A stretch of DNA of 21,248 nt, taken from the IMG/VR virus record IMGVR_UViG_3300029787_000360, positions 1-21,248 of that record; one strand, given 5' to 3'. The notes beneath the pieces were generated by a model. That model did no database searches and was not told where the DNA came from. It was given only the letters and a program-made list of their open reading frames with translations. Source of the stretch: a virus. How positions within the stretch are numbered: position 1 is the first letter of the stretch; each line of letters opens with the position of its first letter. Shown in pieces: positions 2,944-12,560 of the stretch. The translations under genes were made by a program, and so were the position numbers.

Positions 2944-3008
2944 ACTGTTCTCCTTTGGTATGAATGTTGATATAAAACTAGCGTACTATTTAAATAAAAA
3001 AAAATCAA
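2940..3008 (-). CDS. Possible 22-residue leader peptide before DUF932 gene
   Basis: A TTG at 3008 follows the very strong AGAAAGGAGGTGAT ribosome binding sequence and opens a 22-codon frame (MIFFYLNSTLVLYQHSYQRR and on). Its TGA overlaps the ATG of the DUF932 gene as ATGA. The early codons cross a run of nine T residues. The strong ribosome site and the exact stop-start overlap suggest translational coupling, but so short a frame could be chance, and the ribosome site may serve another purpose. Confidence 0.25.
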   Translation of the reverse strand: MIFFYLNSTLVLYQHSYQRRTV

Positions 3009-3015
3009 ATTAATT

Positions 3016-3030
3016 ATCACCTCCTTTCTA
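3016..3030 (-). promoter_or_regulatory. Maximal Shine-Dalgarno sequence
   Basis: On the minus strand the sequence TAGAAAGGAGGTGAT overlaps the stop codon of the 35-residue membrane peptide gene. It is complementary to essentially the whole 3' tail of 16S rRNA of the type ending ATCACCTCCTTTCT. This is far beyond the usual 4-6 base match. It lies 7 bases (from its 3' end) before the TTG of a 22-codon frame and about 72 bases before the DUF932 start. Confidence 0.6.
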
Positions 3031-3135
3031 AAAATTAATTTCGTTTAAAATCATAAACCATGGTAGAATATAGATCGCTATCATAATCAAGATGATGCCT
3101 ATGACATCAGTTACCAAGTCTCTTAACCTCTTCAT
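3028..3135 (-). CDS. Small single-span membrane peptide (35 aa)
   Basis: Reads MKRLRDLVTDVIGIILIMIA followed by IYILPWFMILNEINF. A basic start (K2, R3, R5), one hydrophobic segment at about residues 8-30 and a short polar end make a likely N-in single-span inner-membrane peptide. AAAGGAT about 8 bases before the ATG is an acceptable ribosome site. Its length and layout are like tiny phage membrane proteins, including holin- or superinfection-exclusion-type peptides, but no family is recognised and there is no lysis cassette in view. It stands alone between the terminator at 3192-3223 and the DUF932 gene. Confidence 0.5.
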   Translation of the reverse strand: MKRLRDLVTDVIGIILIMIAIYILPWFMILNEINF

Positions 3136-3191
3136 GCTTTCTATCCTTTCAAGTTGTCCCTTTTCTTACACTCACCACACATGATGAGTAT

Positions 3192-3223
3192 AAAAAAAAG
3201 GACAGACTGTGAAGCCTGTCCTT
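3192..3223 (-). terminator. Rho-independent terminator
   Basis: On the minus strand AAGGACAG (3223-3216) and CTGTCCTT (3205-3198) form an 8-bp stem with a 10-base loop, and the stem runs into a stretch of eight T residues. It starts 12 bases after the stop codon of the gene at 3235-3657 and therefore ends that leftward transcript. The genes further left would then need their own promoter or read-through. Confidence 0.85.
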
Positions 3224-3234
3224 CTCTATCTATC

Positions 3235-3657
3235 TTAGCTAGCCTTTCGCTTGCTTGGTGTAAGTCCACTATCTACACCTGTCTTAAATGGTGAAGGTAG
3301 TCTTGTTGGTCCTGTCTTAGCACCCCACTCATGGTCATGCACTTGCTTATAGAAGTCTTTAGCTGCTCTAAACACTTCCAAAGCATGATCGTAATTCTCT
3401 AAAGCTTGGTTATATTTAGTTACCATGAAGTTCCATTGTGTATCTGAAACCTCGCTAGCATTTGCTTCCTCTGCATCTTTACAATCTTTCTCACAGATAT
3501 GATATCGCTCTTCCATACCTGTCCAGTTATCTTTCTTTTTAGTCTTATAAATATCTCCTTCTAATCTGAAGCAGAAGTTCTTAATCTGGTTCTTAGTCTC
3601 ATAAGTATTAAAGCCAGAAAATAAAAGTTCGAATGTTGTTGCGTTAATTGTAGACAT
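3235..3657 (-). CDS. Hypothetical protein, first gene of leftward arm (140 aa)
   Basis: Encodes MSTINATTFELLFSGFNTYE... It is rich in charged and aromatic residues. A long helical segment (TQWNFMVTKYNQALENYDHALEVFRAAKDFYKQVHDHEWG) could form a coiled coil or helical hairpin. Two cysteines fall in a short run (ICEKDCKD). The C-terminal 30 residues are Pro/Gly/Lys-rich and probably unstructured. Start ATG 3657 follows GGAGAACACTT. Being first after the divergent regulatory region and having a private terminator, it may be strongly and separately expressed. No family recognised; function unknown. Confidence 0.65.
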   Translation of the reverse strand: MSTINATTFELLFSGFNTYETKNQIKNFCFRLEGDIYKTKKKDNWTGMEERYHICEKDCKDAEEANASEVSDTQWNFMVTKYNQALENYDHALEVFRAAKDFYKQVHDHEWGAKTGPTRLPSPFKTGVDSGLTPSKRKAS

Positions 3658-3676
3658 AAGTGTTCTCCATTAATTT

Positions 3677-4402
3677 AAGGTTGTGAAATCAGGATTATCC
3701 TGACATGGCAGGTGAACGGTGATAAACCTTTTCATGACAAGGTCGGATCGTACTTACGATCCGTTGCGTCTATCAGCATTGCCTTTTCATGGAAAGTTCG
3801 CCTTGTATAATCAGGCTGATTTTATCGTTGTGATAAAATAAGACGGATTCTACAAACGCTTGGCGCTTGTATTAACGTACACATGACAGGGCAGGTTAAT
3901 ACGGATTTCATGTTCTTCAATTCATGGTGAACACGCAAGGGCTACAATTATTCTGAGCAACGACATTCTCTTAGAACTTTTATTTTCTGGATTTAATACG
4001 CTCTCACTTAGTTATCAATTAGTCCTTCTGATGAAGAAACTGCGGAGTAATACATCAATTCAATCGTGTGTTTCACACGATTATCATAAATCGTGGAGCA
4101 TAAAGTTCGTGACTGCATGGTGATACAATGAATAGAGATGAGGCGTAAAATAGGCAGGTCGGCTCGACTACAGAGAACACAGCAACATATATGTTACCAC
4201 AGATATGTTGATGCGTGAACAAGTCGAGCGTGCATAGTTTGTATTAGTGCAATGTGACCTGCCGATACTCGATCATGCAGACCGTTACTCCGCAGTCGCA
4301 CGAACCTTTCTGCGACCCTGCTATTGATGTATTACTTCGCACCTTATCGTCTTGGGATAGGTAGTTTGAAGGACAGCCCAATGTCCTTCATTCGCACGAA
4401 GT
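3677..4402 (+). ncRNA. Candidate large structured noncoding RNA (about 730 nt)
   Basis: No credible gene occupies 3658-4512; the segment is dense in complementary pairs. Local hairpins: 3744-3751/3756-3763, 3819-3826/3832-3839, 3869-3876/3895-3902, 4062-4070/4074-4082, 4295-4300/4311-4316, 4367-4375/4382-4390. Long-range helices nest one inside another: 4041-4059/4323-4341 (19 bp, one G-U), 4113-4121/4272-4280 (9 bp, one G-U), 4153-4160/4256-4263, 4162-4169/4222-4229 and 4183-4190/4203-4210. A 5' domain closes with 3937-3943/4021-4027 (one G-U). These wobbles become A-C mismatches on the other strand, which favours a plus-strand RNA, although one hairpin near 3850-3871 pairs better on the minus strand. 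Hand counts give 28/60 (4141-4200) and 35/60 (4261-4320) G+C, well above nearby genes. Size and phage setting recall GOLLD and ROOL RNAs, but no conserved motif of these was verified. A pac/cos or origin region is the alternative. Confidence 0.6.
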
Positions 4403-4414
4403 GCTGAGAAGAGA

Positions 4415-4507
4415 AGAACCCCCTGTGATATGTTTATAACATTGTTGCAACATTACGTCTTGACACGCTATTTGAGAGTAGTCCATAAGGGGGGTAAGGG
4501 GGGTTCT
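4415..4507 (+). promoter_or_regulatory. Possible masked ribosome binding site of small terminase gene
   Basis: AGAACCCCC at 4415-4423 is the exact reverse complement of GGGGGTTCT at 4499-4507. The right arm includes the G-tract (4498-4503) that is the only plausible ribosome binding site for the gene starting at 4513. A second G-tract at 4489-4494 could compete for the same C-run. If both arms are in one RNA, pairing would hide the ribosome site. It could equally be a DNA feature linked to packaging. Confidence 0.4.
4460..4489 (+). promoter_or_regulatory. Weak sigma70-like promoter candidate
   Basis: TTGACA at 4460-4465 is a perfect -35 hexamer. The best -10 is CATAAG at 4484-4489 with an 18-base spacer, matching four of six consensus positions. 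Transcription would begin near 4496, just before the start at 4513, giving a short leader that lacks the upstream C-run. The weak -10 keeps confidence low. Confidence 0.3.
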
Positions 4508-4512
4508 ACAGT

Positions 4513-4884
4513 ATGAATCAGTTAGTTAAATTAACACCTAAACAAATCAAGTTAGTTGATACACTCGTAGCACAAGGGTGTAGTATTACTCAAGCATCTC
4601 AAATAGCAGGTTATGCTACTGGTGATTCTGGTAGAGTGACTGCTAGTAAGGCTTTGAAGCTACCTCATGTACAAGATTATATGATGAGATGCATTAATGA
4701 ATCTATTGGTATGAATGCTACGATAGCTAGCAGTAAGCTTGTTAAACTAGCTAAAGGTGCTAAGAGTGAGTATGTACAGCTTGAGGCTAGTAAGGATATA
4801 CTAGATCGCGCAGGATTCAAAGCACCAGATAAACATCTGCATCTGCATCAAGGTGATATCAAAGTATCTATTGATCTAGGATAG
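4513..4884 (+). CDS. terS: Terminase small subunit, DNA-packaging recognition protein
   Basis: The N-terminal part LTPKQIKLVDTLVAQGCSITQASQIAGYATG followed by ASKALKLPHVQDYM matches the pattern of small terminases of Terminase_2 type: an LTPKQ opening, a helix-turn-helix, then a helix ending in VQxYM. The second half (KLVKLAKGAKSEYVQLEASKDILDRAGFKAP) is the oligomerisation-type helical region, and GDIKVSIDLG forms a short C-terminal strand. The protein recognises phage DNA and recruits the large subunit. At 123 residues it is short but within range. The large-subunit gene lies about 1.4 kb downstream with six small genes between them. The ribosome site is an unusual run of six G residues, 9 bases before the ATG, and could be masked by upstream pairing. 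Confidence 0.7.
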   Translation: MNQLVKLTPKQIKLVDTLVAQGCSITQASQIAGYATGDSGRVTASKALKLPHVQDYMMRCINESIGMNATIASSKLVKLAKGAKSEYVQLEASKDILDRAGFKAPDKHLHLHQGDIKVSIDLG

Positions 4885-11469: not shown

Positions 11470-12282
11470 ATGGCAAACACAATAGACACAGCCTTTATTA
11501 AGCAGTTTGAATCTGAGGTGCATCTTGCTTATCAGAGAATGGGATCGAAACTACGAAACACCGTTCGTACAGTAAGTAATGTTGCAGGAAACATAGTACG
11601 TTTTCAAAAAATCGGTTCTGGTTCTGCTTCAACAAAGTCTAGAAACGGTATGATTACTCCAATGGAGTTAGCGCATACCACAGTAGAAGCTACAATGTCA
11701 GACTTCTATGCTGCTGAGTACATTGATAAGTTAGATGAACTCAAGACAAACATAGATGAAAGACAAGCTGTAGCTAAATCGGCAGCTGCTGCTCTTGGTC
11801 GTAAGACAGATGAAATTCTTATTACAGCTATGGATGCAGGTGCTAATTCAACTCAATTACATGATACCAGTTCAGCTGTTGAAAAAGCAGATTTACTTTC
11901 TGCCTTTGAAACAATGGGTGCTGCAAACATACCTGAGGATGGACAGCGATATATTGCTATGCACCCTAAAGGTTTTGCAGATTTATTTCTCATTACTGAA
12001 TTTGCATCAAGTGATTTTGTCGGAGATCAAAACCTACCCTACGCAGGTGGAATGACAATGAAACAATTCTTAGGTTTCAATATCTTTTCTACGTCTGCTG
12101 TAGCAGCAGGTAAGAGTATGGTGTATCATAGCTCTGCTGTTGGTCTTGGCATTAATGCAGATGTTTCTACAGAACTTAATTATGTTGCTGAGAAAGTATC
12201 TCACCTTGCAACTTCTTCGATGTCTATGGGTGCTGCTGTCATTGATGACAATGGTATCTATGAACTCTTAGATAATAATTAA
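11470..12282 (+). CDS. Major capsid protein (270 aa)
   Basis: MANTIDTAFIKQFESEVHLA, then LRNTVRTVSNVAGNIVRFQKIGSG and VEATMSDFYAAEYIDKLDELKTNIDERQAVAKSAAAALGRKTDEIL match the N-arm and long spine helix of a widespread HK97-fold coat family of podoviruses. The later MHPKGFADL and MKQFLGFNIFSTS fit its A-domain. It assembles the icosahedral shell. I chose ATG 11470 rather than an upstream TTG, because AAGGAGG at 11456-11462 is the strongest ribosome site in this arm, 7 bases away, as expected for the most abundant virion protein. Codon use is less AT-biased than in the tail genes, as in highly expressed genes. Confidence 0.85.
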   Translation: MANTIDTAFIKQFESEVHLAYQRMGSKLRNTVRTVSNVAGNIVRFQKIGSGSASTKSRNGMITPMELAHTTVEATMSDFYAAEYIDKLDELKTNIDERQAVAKSAAAALGRKTDEILITAMDAGANSTQLHDTSSAVEKADLLSAFETMGAANIPEDGQRYIAMHPKGFADLFLITEFASSDFVGDQNLPYAGGMTMKQFLGFNIFSTSAVAAGKSMVYHSSAVGLGINADVSTELNYVAEKVSHLATSSMSMGAAVIDDNGIYELLDNN

Positions 12283-12296
12283 TAGGAGGGTTTTAC

Positions 12297-12560
12297 ATGG
12301 CTTATGCAGCAAGTGGTCTTTGTAGATTAAATGGAGATTCAAATGGGAATCTTTGGACTTACAATACAACCGATGCTATTGCAGCTGTAAATAGTGCAAA
12401 CTATTTTAATGATGCAGCAAATATGTTAAAGGTTCGTGATGTAATTATTGTCAAAGACACTAATACACCAACCACTAATTTTGTTACTGTTCTTTCAAAT
12501 AATGGTTCAGCTGTCGATGTTTCAGACGGAACTGCTATTGCAGAAACAGATGGTGACTAG
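12297..12560 (+). CDS. Small post-capsid protein, possible capsid decoration protein (87 aa)
   Basis: Reads MAYAASGLCRLNGDSNGNLW, then TYNTTDAIAAVNSANYFNDAANMLKVRDVIIVKDTNTPTTNFVTVLSNNGSAVDVSDGTAIAETDGD. The pattern LxxxxGxxNGxLWxYxTxDAxAxVNxxxYF followed by a beta-rich end is one I know from small proteins directly after coat genes in many phages. An AGGAGGG site 6 bases before the ATG suggests high expression, and the terminator follows 3 bases after the stop. Together these fit a head decoration or fibre-base protein, but that is inference. Confidence 0.6.
   Translation: MAYAASGLCRLNGDSNGNLWTYNTTDAIAAVNSANYFNDAANMLKVRDVIIVKDTNTPTTNFVTVLSNNGSAVDVSDGTAIAETDGD

Follow-up and report, generated by a model that had tools for sequence, protein, structure and literature searches.

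A lineage-wide, co-evolving mirror-gene palindrome beside the terminase genes of marine phages most likely encodes a large hairpin RNA

Introduction

GOLLD and ROOL RNAs are very large folded non-coding regions of phage genomes whose function is unknown (PMC12286853). A structured RNA of another kind, the cabRNA of staphylococcal phages, comes from the terminase region; it originates within the terS/terL coding sequence and triggers defence, and cabRNAs of different phages share no sequence while all of them form hairpins (PMC10686824). The cabRNA example shows that an RNA fold derived from a phage terminase region can play a part in defence and that sequence conservation is no requirement for it (PMC10686824). 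The locus that we describe here, in the IMG/VR virus record IMGVR_UViG_3300029787_000360 and its relatives, resembles GOLLD and ROOL in being a very large folded non-coding phage region, and cabRNA in combining a structure in the terminase region with hairpins that lack sequence conservation. It differs from GOLLD and ROOL, which have a conserved core of sequence and structure and often lie near tRNA islands, in having neither, and also in carrying a mirrored gene copy, in matching no Rfam family and in having no core shared between its own families. ROOL RNA itself is abundant and forms homo-oligomeric cages. From cabRNA the locus is set apart by its position 5' of terS and by a co-evolving palindrome of its own, and the RNA here is putative.

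Cis-encoded antisense RNAs such as P22 sar and lambda OOP, the known ones being short, offer a further comparison: the putative plus-strand RNA of our locus would likewise be antisense to the translation start of a neighbouring gene, but here the antisense arm pairs with a mirror copy in cis. Some eukaryotic hairpin RNAs arise by inverted duplication of their target genes and co-evolve with the founder gene, and the locus resembles them in its inverted gene copy and in a hairpin that co-evolves with its founder, the difference being that here gene and copy share one phage palindrome. To our knowledge, RNA interference is absent from bacteria, and we know of no phage feature in which a gene co-evolves base by base with an inverted non-coding copy. 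The mirror-gene palindrome is lineage-wide and co-evolving, and most likely, as judged from its sequence patterns, it encodes a large hairpin RNA that lies outside Rfam and is unlike GOLLD and ROOL.

The locus and its setting

The window, i.e. the whole stretch of 21,248 nucleotides that was analysed, makes up 21.2 kb of a 22.8-kb virus record. Its rightward structural arm carries the genes for the small terminase subunit (TerS, 4513), the large subunit (TerL, 6327), a head-tail adaptor (8263) and the major head protein (11464), while the leftward arm consists of smaller genes, among them those for a RusA-like resolvase and a DUF932 protein; there are no tRNA genes in the 21 kb. Within the left arm, both strands of 801-1100 fold locally (z about -4.4), in overlapping small genes. 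Annotated phages show no DNA similarity to the window, and the closest cultured relative via TerL (63.5%) is Pelagibacter phage EXVC031P Hodr. The complete genome of Hodr is organised likewise: two arms diverge from a single short intergenic region, the sole divergence point of the genome, and converge elsewhere. In the Hodr record OQ414635, the stretch that corresponds to the structured region is 12036-12373. Cumulative GC skew reverses at the structured region. Among long contigs of relatives, the terminase genes are variously placed, and a 32.9-kb contig (L005/L089) starts within TerL.

Between the two arms, a sequence-only reading had proposed a large structured RNA at 3658-4512. As it had claimed, nothing credible is encoded there, the GC content (38-44%) is above that of the neighbours, and the inverted repeats that it listed are present, including a 19-bp helix (4041-4059/4323-4341) that contains a plus-strand G-U pair. 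The proposed span holds in being non-coding and folded, but its 5' domain does not start at 3658: the longest inverted repeat (29 nt, 93%), in which 3605-3633 pairs with 3971-3999, extends into the upstream gene, and the 5' domain is a quasi-palindrome that reaches 53 nt inside this gene, to about 3605. At the other side, the structured element probably ends before 4460, because the 3' end of the interval is occupied by the small-terminase promoter and a family-conserved G-run motif. The features of the locus are as follows.

3192 to 3223, minus strand: intrinsic-terminator-like hairpin and T-run (AAGGACAGGCTTCACAGTCTGTCCTTTTTTTT), end of the upstream gene's unit and left cassette boundary (from the sequence, and from the near-identity to the relative L166, which ends at 3222)
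3235 to 3657, minus strand: upstream gene, encoding a fast-evolving helical protein of 140 aa, with its 5' end within the left palindrome arm
3605 to 3802, plus strand: left palindrome arm, antisense to the translation start of the upstream gene (ribosome-binding site, start-codon region and initial ~18 codons)
3803 to 3999, plus strand: right palindrome arm, a non-coding copy that mirrors the 5' end of the upstream gene (in the outer part, 73% identical to the left arm when the latter is reverse-complemented)
4039 to 4341, plus strand: second structured domain, closed by the 19-bp helix and ending at the right cassette boundary, 4341/4342 (from folding, repeats and the comparison with L166)
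4367 to 4390, plus strand: perfect hairpin of 8-9 bp (GAAGGACA-GCCCAA-TGTCCTTC) 5' of the late promoter, also kept in L166
4460 to 4488, plus strand: sigma70-like late-arm promoter, with TTGACA (4460-4465), a 17-nt spacer and CCATAA (TTGACA is conserved 5' of TerS in nearly all relatives)
4489 to 4503, plus strand: double G-run GGGGGG-TAA-GGGGGG between promoter and TerS, conserved in most relatives
4513 to 4884, plus strand: terminase small subunit, first gene of the structural arm (PHROG 2538 and 51)

Paired G-runs with a short spacer (GGGGGGGAACACAAGGGGGGG type) are kept 5' of TerS in L012, L052, L128 and others, and are possibly a site of transcription-start slippage or a packaging start. 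For 3658-4512, the predicted RNA folding energy of the plus strand is -273 kcal/mol (z -4.9) and that of the minus strand -253 kcal/mol (z -8.1), each against 20 shuffles. In 300-nt scans of the window by itself the folding is not extraordinary, a consequence of its long-range helices; the strong evidence for structure comes from relatives and not from the window alone.

Relatives and exchange of the cassette

Relatives of TerL and TerS were gathered from viral contigs, and about 70 distinct upstream regions were defined, of which 51 bounded intergenic regions, including those of the window and of Hodr, were analysed. Nearly all relatives have a minus-strand gene of roughly 125-180 aa (about 265 aa in two of them), then a non-coding gap of 227-863 nt and then TerS. 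The fold of every one of the 51 bounded gaps beats dinucleotide shuffles, with a mean z of -7.7 on the plus and -7.1 on the minus strand, and in 50 of them the plus strand is energetically the lower. Gap sequence is hardly alignable between families and no universal sequence motif was found across them; the parts conserved in sequence lie outside the structure, and consist of TTGACA, ~17 nt, a weak -10 and, in most relatives, two G-runs, before TerS.

Identity between the relative L166 and the window is 99% across 2978-3222 and 98% across 4342-4572, whereas between these flanks (3223-4341) both the gene and the structured region are unrelated. By this comparison, gene and structured region are swapped as one cassette between phages whose flanking sequences are ~99% identical; the left boundary of the cassette falls at the terminator of the gene (3192-3223) and the right one at the end of the 19-bp helix (4341). 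Segment swaps are also seen within families, e.g. between L126 and L127.

The window's upstream protein has no relative in viral contigs by pattern search and no credible Pfam or PHROG match, and a structure search with its AlphaFold model, a plain helical fold, gave nothing significant; models of the upstream proteins are helical hairpins without significant structural relatives. Two upstream-protein families are mutually homologous (hhalign E 1.6e-6), and the window's own subfamily could not be connected to these two at the sequence level. In family E (L168-L175), synonymous conservation is unusually high at about codons 61-96 of the upstream gene, which suggests an overlapping element, and the first 12 codons are conserved too in families A, B, C and E.

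A mirror-gene quasi-palindrome

Comparison of each region with its own reverse complement reveals a significant inverted repeat in 45 of the 51 groups, mostly a quasi-palindrome whose centre and the upstream start codon are about 85-165 nt apart. In the 16 groups examined, palindromes score 50-460, whereas shuffles score 10-30 and coding controls 10-18. In most groups, the left arm includes the upstream gene's ribosome-binding site together with its first 9-31 codons; in the window, where the quasi-palindrome is 3605-3999, this arm covers about 18 codons. Seven groups (L022, L052, L080, L092, L100, L117 and L131) have a palindrome that spans the entire gene and its terminator, and in L022, L052, L080, L092, L100 and L131 BLASTX of the gap's plus strand recovers the group's own upstream protein in decayed form. 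The "intergenic" half in the seven relatives is a decayed inverted copy of the upstream gene. The mirror copy was rejected as a coding sequence, since arm-to-arm mismatches are without codon-phase bias. Gene mirroring is common and not universal, because the palindromes of family E (27-269, 441-570) are confined to the gap; in some groups, e.g. L126, L154 and L166, there is no palindrome match.

Co-evolution of the arms

Covariation in homologous intergenic regions, to which the sequence-only reading had pointed as a check, was found: compensatory changes exceed controls in families D and E as well as between palindrome arms. They affect 51 of 168 pairs in family E (shuffle mean 20.8, maximum 30) and 22 of 86 pairs in family D (shuffle mean 10.4, maximum 16), and both counts also far exceed slid controls. 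For the arms, co-changes were counted in four-way alignments of both arms from two genomes. Both arms had changed at 63 sites in L092/L100, where 18.9 were expected, and a Watson-Crick pair was kept in 50 of these; the corresponding counts are 203 against 143.8 in L052/L131, with pairing kept at 117, and 172 against 113.1 in L092/L117, with pairing kept at 116. The excess exists only at the mirror position (offset zero), with 63 co-changes against 17-33 at other offsets in L092/L100, 162 against ~114 in L080/L131 and 203 against ~149 in L052/L131. In whole-gene palindromes a genome's own arms match at 71-78%, and arms taken across genomes at 43-52% in three divergent pairs. Arm-to-arm copying could account for some of the compensation.

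Strand preference

Among 1x1 mismatches in strand-neutral folds there are 61 G.T against 20-25 A.C, and at isolated mismatches in the palindrome arms G.T outnumbers A.C by 153 to 19 (22 groups against one; p 1.7e-16 against local composition). In a quasi-independence model that absorbs base composition, the G.T effect shrinks to 1.4-1.9-fold in three of the four tables and vanishes in the remaining one, and it is significant in none. The skew of G.G over C.C and of T.T over A.A follows the order expected from plus-strand helix stability; the mismatch skew is absent from terminal loops and weaker in the non-palindromic rest of the gap. To us this is good but not conclusive evidence that the plus strand folds back on itself, and the G.T excess points to plus-strand folding, for which RNA is the simplest form; single-stranded DNA would give similar mismatch preferences. 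GAA triloops number eight on the plus strand and one on the minus strand. Of the proposal of a large plus-strand structured RNA, the structure and the strand are thus upheld by the compensatory changes and the G.T excess, and the RNA itself is what these patterns suggest. No sigma70 promoter was recognised on the plus-strand 5' side of the structure, with no consistent site there, and none is consistent for the minus-strand upstream gene; the late promoter (4460) sits 3' of the structured element.

Rfam families, loops and motifs

Membership of GOLLD or ROOL, which had been considered, did not bear out: Rfam covariance models run on the window and 20 relatives gave no gathering-threshold match, to these or any other family, and all Rfam families were rejected accordingly. 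For GOLLD and ROOL there was nothing at E up to 10 across 3500-4700, and for Rfam as a whole that relaxed threshold gave no more than chance-level matches around the region. The loops are unlike those of compactly folded RNAs: none of 24 stem-capped tetraloops (stems of at least 7 bp) is GNRA or UNCG and, among unpaired bases in strand-neutral folds, A is not in excess over T.

An internal motif, CAUSGUUC/GGUUSUG, with a covarying S-S pair, occurs in 3' terminal hairpins that are otherwise dissimilar (e.g. L110, L128), and is restricted to families D and E. In family E (e.g. L168:1600-1700), a symmetric purine internal loop, AAGGAA/AAGGAA, is constant and its flanking helices covary (L175).

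Discussion

On balance, we lean towards the reading that the region encodes a plus-strand RNA with one or more very long imperfect hairpins, the core of which would be an inverted non-coding copy of the 5' part, or the whole unit, of the adjacent gene, kept complementary to the gene through compensatory changes at single bases. The palindrome, its conservation at the locus, the co-evolution of its arms, the plus-strand mismatch bias and the exchange of the cassette are read directly from aligned genomes, and from these we infer transcription of the region. Selection appears to act on the long double-stranded structure and not on the sequence of loops or motifs.

A distinctly less probable account, which nevertheless deserves weight, is that the gene unit was duplicated in inverted orientation and that the arms are kept alike by template switching or gene conversion at replication (quasi-palindrome correction), so that compensatory changes would be copied, not selected, and an RNA would be unnecessary. 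The greater likeness of arms within a genome than of orthologous arms across genomes agrees with such copying, as do the common A-T to T-A exchanges (17 of the 50 compensated sites in L092/L100) and the excess of long perfect runs in five of the eight tested. However, 24 of the same 50 sites are isolated, families D and E have compensatory pairs in helices without gene involvement, and mutational origin alone leaves the plus-strand excess of G.T (and of G.G and T.T) at isolated mismatches unexplained.

We consider it rather unlikely that the locus is a DNA element whose plus strand folds when single-stranded during replication or packaging, be it a single-strand origin, a primosome site or a packaging signal. 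Such an element would suit the terminase-adjacent position, which in Hodr is also the only point where the genome's two arms diverge, as well as the turn of the cumulative GC skew at the region, the terminal loops, which are not RNA-like, and the strand bias of the GAA triloops. Against it, no conserved protein-binding repeat is seen within the structure, the conserved DNA elements (TTGACA and the G-runs) lie outside it, and among single-strand origins hairpins so large and variable (227-863 nt) are unusual. Far less probable still is that the locus belongs to GOLLD, ROOL or another described class of large phage RNA: comparable size, location in phages and elaborate folding would fit (PMC12286853), but Rfam gives no gathering-threshold match, the window contains no tRNA and the families have no core in common.

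Returning to the long hairpin RNA, we speculate that it would be made during infection and act through its double-stranded character. A function that needs double-strandedness itself is the simplest, because length, sequence, loops and gene overlap vary while the plus-strand duplex persists. Our best guess is that the RNA may be a decoy for host nucleases or sensors that bind double-stranded RNA, or that it may control the upstream gene as an antisense/RNase III element. The antisense option would make use of the left arm, which in most members contains the upstream gene's ribosome-binding site and initial codons; family E palindromes lie inside the gap and some groups have no palindrome, and antisense to the gene is therefore not universal.

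The composite picture, in which a marine phage lineage carries an undescribed kind of locus made of a gene and its co-evolving mirrored non-coding copy, giving a giant hairpin RNA and exchanged as a cassette, is one that we hold a little more tentatively, just short of an even chance. The cultured member Hodr, with its host Pelagibacter HTCC1062, makes the locus testable. If the RNA exists, it would be a large RNA found throughout the lineage, conserved in structure and hardly in sequence, and so missed by sequence-based scans and by Rfam. It would also inform our view of phage counter-measures against RNA-sensing defence (cf. cabRNA, PMC10686824) and of the birth of large structured RNAs through inverted duplication of a neighbouring gene.
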